Assembly: GCA_958296385.1 (NCBI GenBank)
Contig: OY282494.1
Span: forward strand, 1,037,416 to 1,101,415
Origin: an uncultured Dehalococcoidia bacterium
Lineage (GTDB): Bacteria > Chloroflexota > Dehalococcoidia > Lucifugimonadales > UBA3495
Reading direction: 5' to 3'
DNA length: 64,000 nucleotides
Within the stretch, counting starts at the first letter, position 1; every line of letters starts with the position of its first letter. The position numbers and the translations under genes were made by a program. The notes under the pieces were generated by a model, which saw nothing but the letters and a program-made list of their open reading frames with translations, did not search any database and had not been told where the DNA came from. Shown here one piece after another: positions 28,136 through 30,706 of this stretch.

Positions 28136-28183
28136 TTCGGCGCATTTCACAGCCAGAATTGGCGCCCCAATCGGAGGAATCAG

Positions 28184-28999
28184 TTGACCAGCGAACCTCA
28201 AATTTCGATTGCAGAAGCCATCAATATATTCGTAAGTCATCTGAAAGACAGCAAAACGGCAATGACCGGGCAGCAGGAATTGCTGCGATTCCAGGCCCGC
28301 GTTGGCAAGGACAAGCCCATTGCCGGCCTGCACGCCATTGAGGTTGGCGATTACGCCAAGTGGACTACCGAGAACGTTGAGGACCCGGCCATCCGGCTGG
28401 ACCCGGTCAAGAAGTTCCTCGCCTTTGCGAACCGCCGCAACTGGACGGAAATCAGCCTGGCCCGCTACGCCGCCGCGCCCCGTCGCAACCGCCGCCGGGC
28501 GCAGAACCCCGGCCAATCGGTAGCCGGCAGCACCCCCACCGCCCGCCTGAGCGCCGAACGACACATTGAGTTGCAGGCCGAGCTGGAGCGATTGCGCAAC
28601 GAAGTTCCCCGCATCCGCGACGCCATCCGCCTGGCCCGCGCCGACGGCGACGTCCGCGAGAACGCCCCCCTGGACGCCGCCCGCGAGCAGCAGCAACTGG
28701 TAGAACGCCGCATCCGCCAGCTGGAGAACGACTTGGCCCGCGTCGAGATTGTTGACGCCGCCAACGCCGACACCGAGCGCGTCAGCATCGGCTCCCGCGT
28801 AACCCTGCAAGACCTGGGGACGCGTCAGCAGCGCGTCTTTACCCTGGTTGACGTGCGCGAAGCCGACGTAGCGGCTGGCAAAATCTCCACCGTATCCCCT
28901 ATCGGCCAGGCGCTGATGGGCAAGATGGCCAGCGAGGAAGTAACCATCAGCACCCCCCGCGGTTCCGTCCAGTACCGCATTGAGGGCATCGGCGGGTAG
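28184..28999 (+). CDS. greA: GreA-type transcription cleavage factor with extra N-terminal domain
   Basis: A 271-residue protein. Residues 120-190 form the Gre coiled coil, with the acidic tip GDVRENAPLDAAREQQ (Asp156, Glu159) that enters the RNA polymerase channel; residues 190-271 are the FKBP-like C-terminal domain (VSIGSRVTLQDLG, ISTVSPIGQALMGK). Gre factors rescue backtracked polymerase by stimulating transcript cleavage. The first 95 residues are extra and look like a small helical core-binding domain as in tyrosine recombinases (AINIFVSHLKDS, LDPVKKFLAFANRR), joined by an Arg-rich linker. Usual GreA is about 158 residues. TTG 28184 is the start, with GGAGGA five nt upstream. Confidence 0.88.
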   Translation: MTSEPQISIAEAINIFVSHLKDSKTAMTGQQELLRFQARVGKDKPIAGLHAIEVGDYAKWTTENVEDPAIRLDPVKKFLAFANRRNWTEISLARYAAAPRRNRRRAQNPGQSVAGSTPTARLSAERHIELQAELERLRNEVPRIRDAIRLARADGDVRENAPLDAAREQQQLVERRIRQLENDLARVEIVDAANADTERVSIGSRVTLQDLGTRQQRVFTLVDVREADVAAGKISTVSPIGQALMGKMASEEVTISTPRGSVQYRIEGIGG

Positions 29000-29050: not shown

Positions 29051-29515
29051 CTAGTTCAGCTCCGCAACCGCCTGCAAAATGGTTGCCGGGTCCGGCAGAG
29101 TCCCCGGCTGGTAAGTCTCCCGGTAGCGGATGACGCCCTCCCGGTCAACGATAATCACGGCACGGGTTCCGGCGCCCCGTTCCTCGTTCCAAAGGTCGTA
29201 AGCGCGGGTAACCTGCCCTTTGGGATGCCAGTCCGACAACTCCGGGTAAGGCAGCCCCCCCATCGAGGTTGTCCAGGCCCGATGGGCCGCCACGTGGTCG
29301 CAGCTGATGCCCAAAACCTGAGCATTCTGCTCCTCAAACTGCGCATTGAGACGCCGGAACGACGTCGCCTGGTCAGTTCAACCGCCGGTAAAATCCAGCA
29401 CGTGAAACGAAAGCACCACGCTGTTAGCGCCGCGATAACTGCTCAGCGTAACATCGCCATGATGCGGAGAGGAAAGCGTGAAATCAGCGGCAACATCGCC
29501 AATCTGGCCGGGCAT
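29051..29515 (-). CDS. Selenocysteine-containing peroxiredoxin (in-frame UGA)
   Basis: A 154-residue redoxin/AhpE-type peroxiredoxin if UGA at 29378-29380 is read as selenocysteine 46. Upstream is MPGQIGDVAADFTL and SFHVLDFTGG; the TGA follows in the exact place of the peroxidatic Cys of the TxxC motif (T-G-G-U). The same frame continues without break through TDQATSFRRLN, VLGISCDHVAAHRAW and RAVIIVDREGVIRY to TAG. A hairpin at 29350-29366 starts 11 nt past the UGA, with a loop beginning with G 17 nt past it, as bacterial SECIS elements require. AGGAG precedes the ATG at 29513-29515. Peroxiredoxins reduce peroxides in the cytoplasm. The alternative is a sequencing error or nonsense mutation of TGC/TGT. 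Confidence 0.82.
29350..29366 (-). promoter_or_regulatory. Candidate bacterial SECIS hairpin
   Basis: On the coding (minus) strand GACGTC pairs with GGCGTC (one G-U) around the loop GTTCC; the stem extends by a further G-C if the loop is closed to three nt. An outer AACTG/CAGTT pairing brackets it. The loop begins with G and lies 17 nt 3' of the UGA, within the known bacterial SECIS range. Confidence 0.6.
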
Positions 29516-29570
29516 CTGAAACTCCTGAAACCTGCAAACTAGCCCCCGCCCGCAAGCGAAAACCGCCGGA

Positions 29571-29692: not shown

Positions 29693-30706
29693 GTGAACGT
29701 TGTTTTTGACAGAGGGGTTTATCTGCCCGGCCTGGATTTGTGGCTGGACGCCCTGCGCAAGCAGGATTTTGCCGTCATCTCCCACGCCCATTCCGACCAC
29801 ACCGCCCGCCACGCCCGCCCCGTCCTGACCCCCAACACGCAGCTGCTGCTGTCCGAGTACCTCCGCAAATCGCAGTCGGTTACCCTGGAATACGGCGAAC
29901 CGCTGGACGCCAGCGACTACTCCATAACCCTGCATCCGGCCGGCCATTGCCTCGGTTCGGCGCAAGCGCTGGTTACGCAGCGTTCCGACGGCGCGCGCCT
30001 GCTGTACACCGGCGACATACGCGTCCAGCCCTCCCCCATCAACGAGCCGCTGGAAACCGTATCCTGCGACACATTGGTCATCGAAAGCACCTACGGCCGC
30101 CCCGATTACGTCTTTCCCCCGCAGGCCGACGCCGTAGCCAACGCCGTGCGGGTGCTAACCGCCTGGCTGGAGCAGGGCGCGCTGCCCGTAGCATTGGGCT
30201 GGCGTTTGGGCAAGGCTCAGGAGATTTTGCATCATCTATTGAGCGCCGGTTTCCGCGTAGCCTGTGAGGATGGCATTTATGACGTCGCCCGCAAGTACGA
30301 GGATGGCGGCGTGACATTCCCCGGCCCTTACCGCATTTTTGACGGAACTGCCGCCGATGATGAGGTGCTGCTGTTCCCCCCCGGACGCAAGAGCCGCGAG
30401 TACATCAGCCAGCATCGCCCGCCGGGCCGCCCCGTGCGCTACCTGGAGGTAACCGGCTGGGCCGCCGGCAGCGGCCGCCGTCCCTGGGGCAGCGGCCGCC
30501 CCGGCGACGCCAGCCTCCCTTACAGCGACCACGCCGATTTCAACGACCTGATTGCCTACGTGCAGGCCGTTCACCCCCGGCGTATATTCACCGTGTTCGG
30601 CTTTCCCGACCTGGCGGAACGCCTGCGCCGCATGGGATACGCCGCCGTGCATCTCGGCAAAAACGCCACCGCCGCCGACCGCGAGTACCAGATGCCGCTG
30701 CTGTGA
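29693..30706 (+). CDS. Metallo-beta-lactamase-fold exonuclease-like protein
   Basis: A 337-residue metallo-beta-lactamase-fold protein of the mRNA 3'-end processing/ligase-associated exonuclease group. The metal motif HxHxDH is in ISHAHSDHTA near residue 30, the second His in HPAGHCLGSAQAL, the Asp in LLYTGDIRV, and the SYSDHADFND-like block (PYSDHADF) near the C-terminus. The RLGKAQEILHHLL segment resembles the ligase-associated DNA exonuclease family. No DNA ligase or helicase gene is adjacent, so the partner is unknown. Start is GTG 29693. It converges on leuA with a strong hairpin between. Confidence 0.85.
   Translation: MNVVFDRGVYLPGLDLWLDALRKQDFAVISHAHSDHTARHARPVLTPNTQLLLSEYLRKSQSVTLEYGEPLDASDYSITLHPAGHCLGSAQALVTQRSDGARLLYTGDIRVQPSPINEPLETVSCDTLVIESTYGRPDYVFPPQADAVANAVRVLTAWLEQGALPVALGWRLGKAQEILHHLLSAGFRVACEDGIYDVARKYEDGGVTFPGPYRIFDGTAADDEVLLFPPGRKSREYISQHRPPGRPVRYLEVTGWAAGSGRRPWGSGRPGDASLPYSDHADFNDLIAYVQAVHPRRIFTVFGFPDLAERLRRMGYAAVHLGKNATAADREYQMPLL

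Follow-up and report, generated by a model that had tools for sequence, protein, structure and literature searches.

The question raised by this locus, which belongs to a bacterium of the SAR202 group, is whether a peroxiredoxin reading frame with a TGA codon at its catalytic cysteine position encodes a selenoprotein or is a broken or differently read gene. The initial annotation of the window (the whole 64,000-nucleotide stretch of DNA that was analysed) took it for a real selenocysteine (Sec) peroxiredoxin, and that reading is supported by the Sec machinery of the genome, by a homologue column that holds only TGA or Cys codons, and by selection on the part of the gene downstream of the TGA. 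We put the probability that this is a genuine selenoprotein gene of a known kind at about 95%. We infer Sec insertion from the Sec machinery and an RNA structure signal, and peroxidase activity, with its cycle of peroxide attack and reduction, from the chemistry of AhpE.

The reading frame and its in-frame TGA

Translation of the minus-strand frame from 29515 to 29051 bore out the description of it as open but for one TGA, which is codon 46 (29380-29378) in the context DFTGGUTDQATSFRR when TGA is read as U. Peroxiredoxin homology had been claimed on both sides of this codon, and the Pfam AhpC-TSA domain does extend across it, covering residues 5-131 (E 1.7e-33; 115.6 bits, cut-off 26). Residue U46 lies opposite the peroxidatic Cys of Mycobacterium tuberculosis AhpE, in agreement with the proposal that the UGA occupies the catalytic Cys of a TxxC motif. 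A frame split by TGA is in itself nothing unusual in this GC-rich window, where 214 TGA-split open frames were counted, most of them chance frames to judge by their codon-position composition; the evidence beyond chance comes from the homology on both sides of the TGA and the conservation of the codon at its column, not from the split frame itself. Features of the locus are collected in Table 1.

Table 1. Coordinates of the predicted Sec-peroxiredoxin gene and its signals within the window.
Feature	Position	Strand	Basis
Sec-peroxiredoxin gene (AhpE-like), 154 aa with U46	29051..29515	-	AhpC-TSA across the TGA; AhpE top match in sequence and fold
Start ATG; stop TAG	29515; 29053-29051	-	Translation with TGA = U
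UGA codon, predicted Sec, peroxidatic position of T-G-G-U	29378..29380	-	69 TGA and 10 TGC/TGT among 79 homologues
Shine-Dalgarno-like AGGAG, six bases 5' of the ATG	29522..29526	-	Sequence reading
Predicted SECIS hairpin core of this species, GACGUCG-UUC-CGGCGUC	29350..29366	-	Pair probability, synonymous-codon shuffles; not conserved in relatives
SECIS region, first 48 nt past the UGA, with more RNA structure in Sec-type homologues than coding constraint explains	29330..29377	-	Synonymous-codon shuffles

The Sec-peroxiredoxin gene keeps its neighbours, a GreA-like gene downstream, a metallo-hydrolase upstream and a quinone oxidoreductase, within the genus and to some extent in the family. 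At 28160-28999 (plus strand) the window encodes an elongation factor of the GreA/GreB type whose N-terminus is extended by about 125 residues; by eye this extension resembles an integrase SAM-like domain, and it gave no Pfam match.

Selenocysteine machinery and distribution in the order

The genome that contains the window is a single contig of 3.3 Mb, in which profile searches recovered SelA (536 bits, cut-off 268), SelB (357 bits, cut-off 242), SelD (374 bits, cut-off 125) and one tRNA-Sec above the gathering score (66.4 bits), also called by ARAGORN, with the anticodon TCA (UCA in RNA). The initial annotation had implied that selA, selB, selC and selD would lie elsewhere in the genome, and had named their absence as evidence against a selenoprotein; all four were found, selA, selB and selD above curated cut-offs. 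The SelD gene (G000:C1:1766127-1767047, L012) has one in-frame TGA of its own, in the context HCAGUAAK, and its product is a candidate selenoprotein too.

Among 197 genomes of the same order, relatives of the Sec-peroxiredoxin gene were found in 164, and copies with exactly one in-frame TGA in at least 136, a lower bound among the matches listed. The machinery is similarly widespread, with selA in 170 and tRNA-Sec in 167 of the 197 genomes. At least one of the two was present in 133 of the 136 genomes with a TGA-type peroxiredoxin, the exceptions (G155, G169 and G183) being metagenome-assembled genomes that are 60, 87 and 66% complete, and both were absent from 12 of the 61 genomes without a listed TGA-type copy. 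The association is significant (Fisher P 6.7e-5), a value that is optimistic because the genomes are related and phylogeny was left uncorrected.

Codon conservation and selection downstream of the UGA

Alignment of 79 distinct homologues, the comparison that had been proposed to look for Cys or U at this column, gave TGA in 69, TGC or TGT in 10, and no other codon. Against congeners of 82-86% identity, the part of the gene downstream of the UGA had a dN of 0.06-0.10 and a dS of 1.2-2.5 or saturated, and where dN/dS could be computed it was 0.02-0.08, with dS near saturation. The upstream part had a similar dN. Purifying selection past the UGA indicates that the downstream part is translated.

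These observations bear directly on the two readings in which no Sec is made. Were the gene a pseudogene, or the TGA a sequencing error, the codon would be a nonsense mutation or a miscalled TGC or TGT, from which it is a single base away, and the many other TGA-split frames in the window show how readily such frames occur. We consider this the least probable of the alternatives, and close to negligible, since the same TGA recurs in the 69 homologues across many independent assemblies, the downstream frame, which might have been found decayed in relatives, is instead under strong selection, and the genome holds Sec machinery. Nearly as improbable is a UGA decoded by a different tRNA, for Trp or Cys, or through an altered genetic code: Cys does stand at this column in other homologues, and UGA read as Cys would also give a working enzyme, but the column is without Trp, the adjoining gene at 29693-30706 uses TGA as an ordinary stop, and tRNA-Sec, SelA, SelB and SelD are all encoded in the genome.

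RNA structure after the UGA

A SECIS-like hairpin of 6-7 bp, with a G-first loop 17 nt after the UGA, had been described in the window gene. The hairpin is there: read as 7 bp it has a UUC loop that begins 18 nt after the UGA, and read as 6 bp it has a G-first GUUCC loop that begins at 17 nt. It is also the dominant predicted fold in the window sequence, with pair probabilities of 0.68-0.78. This particular hairpin is not conserved in relatives, where different hairpins stand in for it: 57% of its pairs form within the genus and 43-48% in the other groups. An alternative pairing, at offsets 16-20/44-48 and 23-27/37-41 from the U of the UGA, forms at 82-83% in the genus and family, a count that is weak evidence taken alone because the pairs lie partly in codons fixed by the protein.

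RNAalifold returned no consensus structure for the pooled alignment, probably because hairpin registers differ between clades, and a shuffle test was therefore used in which synonymous codons were permuted within each gene, so that protein and codon usage were kept. This test is stronger evidence than the pair count of the alternative hairpin. For the 48 nt after the UGA the mean z was -1.78 over the 69 Sec genes (84% below -1), compared with -0.56 for the 48 nt after codon 46 in the 10 Cys genes; most other segments of the gene gave z near 0. This excess of structure in the Sec forms speaks for a selected SECIS element. In the window gene by itself the 45-nt signal was modest (P 0.08, or 0.04 with the UGA included), and the 17-nt hairpin core gave z -4.5 and P 0.004, for a segment that the initial annotation had picked beforehand, the P being uncorrected for this selection.

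In each of the 69 Sec forms a hairpin is predicted whose loop lies 17-30 nt past the UGA, and a G stands in the first two positions of only 33 of these loops. A SECIS hairpin after the UGA is thus predicted throughout the Sec forms. Either close relatives have come to differ in its fold, or one of them has been predicted wrongly. It is conceivable, and in our judgement rather unlikely, that Sec is inserted in the window gene through another fold, as in its relatives, and not through the hairpin first described; the better pairing of the alternative across genus and family speaks for this, but in the window sequence the probability of that alternative is approximately 0. In the preferred reading, that of a Sec-decoded gene, SelB and Sec-tRNA(UCA) would recognise a coding-region hairpin just after the UGA, and Sec would be inserted in place of termination.

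Protein family and active site

The predicted protein appears to be a member of the peroxiredoxin superfamily (AhpC-TSA) by homology and modelled fold over the whole domain. Among solved structures M. tuberculosis AhpE is the closest to it (E 5e-29; the next molecule, 8e-17), and an AlphaFold2 model (mean pLDDT 96.5 from 43 aligned sequences) superimposes on AhpE with a TM score of 0.94 and an rmsd of 1.2 Å at 38% identity. The first twelve PDB fold matches to the model were all AhpE. Sequence and model comparisons thus place the protein in the AhpE subfamily, AhpE being the closest among solved peroxiredoxins.

The initial annotation had called the protein PrxU-type, a label that proved wrong: it scored 55.6 bits against the PrxU profile NF040737 (cut-off 270), and AhpE was the best match in both sequence and fold. 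PrxU, which was reportedly described from Eubacterium acidaminophilum, is likewise a peroxiredoxin with Sec as its catalytic residue, but it is longer (a profile of 233 positions) and belongs to another subfamily.

The gene would thus encode an AhpE-like (1-Cys-type) peroxiredoxin in which Sec replaces the peroxidatic Cys. Residue 46 lies at the start of helix 44-55 in the model, and T43, U46 and R118 do not vary in the Sec forms. A selenolate at the N-terminus of this helix, beside T43 and R118, would attack the peroxide and become a selenenic acid, to be reduced in turn by an outside thiol or redoxin. C72 was considered as an obligatory resolving Cys and rejected, as only 48 of the 68 Sec forms and 5 of the 10 Cys forms have Cys there. 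Since this Cys is frequent without being general, the most likely mechanism is that of a 1-Sec peroxiredoxin, with an external thiol or redoxin as reductant.

The canonical motif PxxxT(S)xxC/U is incomplete in the window protein, which has T43 and U46 and lacks the Pro, hence the name AhpE-like variant. The alignment to AhpE is gapless at this place, and the residue is V39 (residues 39-42 at 29392-29403, minus strand). Of the 68 Sec forms from the order, 59 have Val or Ile at position 39 and seven have Pro; elsewhere in the phylum, the Sec forms of other classes and families include several with Pro and others with Ala or Val. Given Val in place of the motif Pro, peroxidase activity should not be taken for granted. 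The same genome encodes a Cys paralogue (G000:C1:1106288-1106755; AFFPGAFTGVCTTEMC) about 39 kb from the gene and outside the window, which has the motif Pro and no internal stop.

Relation to known selenoproteins

Peroxiredoxins with the motif TxxU are an established bacterial selenoprotein family, with 12 genes in 2006 (PMC1794560), 43 in Sargasso Sea data (PMC1088965) and 253 in GOS data (PMC2398784), and they are entered in reviews of 2022 and 2026 (PMC9312934, PMC13188914). The window protein resembles this family in having Sec at the peroxidatic TxxC position, the domain pfam00578, and a hairpin after the UGA. The later review describes PxxxTxxU as highly conserved in Sec-peroxiredoxins (PMC13188914), a pattern from which the SAR202 forms depart, with Val for the motif Pro in the window protein. 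M. tuberculosis AhpE (Rv2238c; structures 1xxu and 5c04), a 1-Cys enzyme similar in sequence and fold as described above, differs in having Cys and the motif Pro, and has F37 where the window protein has H38. It is reduced by mycoredoxin-1 and mycothiol (PMC4360819).

Our literature search found no paper that joins SAR202 with selenoproteins, and none that places TxxU peroxiredoxins in SAR202 or in the AhpE subfamily. A study with SAR202 bins among its material reported an enrichment of SelA and SelB in the bins of sponge symbionts (PMC5649159), and the marine peroxiredoxin sequences of published surveys may well include SAR202 copies. Sec-peroxiredoxins with TxxU are thus a long-described and abundant marine family, and knowledge of Sec decoding itself is unchanged by our finding; new are the AhpE-like subfamily, its occurrence across most of the SAR202 order, the substitution of the motif Pro, and a SECIS hairpin that has apparently turned over. 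A predicted selenium-dependent AhpE-like peroxidase would apparently occur in most of an uncultured bacterial order, in a gene that ordinary gene callers are expected to split at the UGA.

A more far-reaching picture, which we offer tentatively and do not favour, is that SAR202 kept the Sec codon order-wide while rebuilding the SECIS hairpin between close relatives and dispensing with a near-universal active-site Pro. If this were true, the Pro was perhaps lost because selenium chemistry no longer needs it.

Exchange between Sec and Cys forms

Sec and Cys forms are mixed across the phylum, and the well supported branches of a 78-protein tree require that Sec and Cys were exchanged at least twice. 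The five Cys forms of one family (f24; L081-L085) were placed among Sec forms with weak support, and selA and tRNA-Sec are kept in four of the five f24 genomes with a Cys peroxiredoxin. This placement, the Val or Ile that all five have at position 39, and the retained machinery together suggest a reversion from Sec to Cys with the machinery still in place, for a clade whose position in the tree is weakly supported. The homologues form a large natural collection of both types, with Cys lineages that have Sec machinery among them, and allow tests of the conditions under which Sec pays, of the pace of SECIS turnover, and of the role of the motif Pro in a selenoenzyme.

Copies of the TGA type, with 59-67% identity, also occurred in contigs labelled Proteobacteria, Entotheonella and Armatimonadetes (L073-L075, L079), by either horizontal transfer or wrong binning. 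One further homologue (G552:C120:7620-8051) contains one TGA and two TAG codons and is probably a decaying copy.
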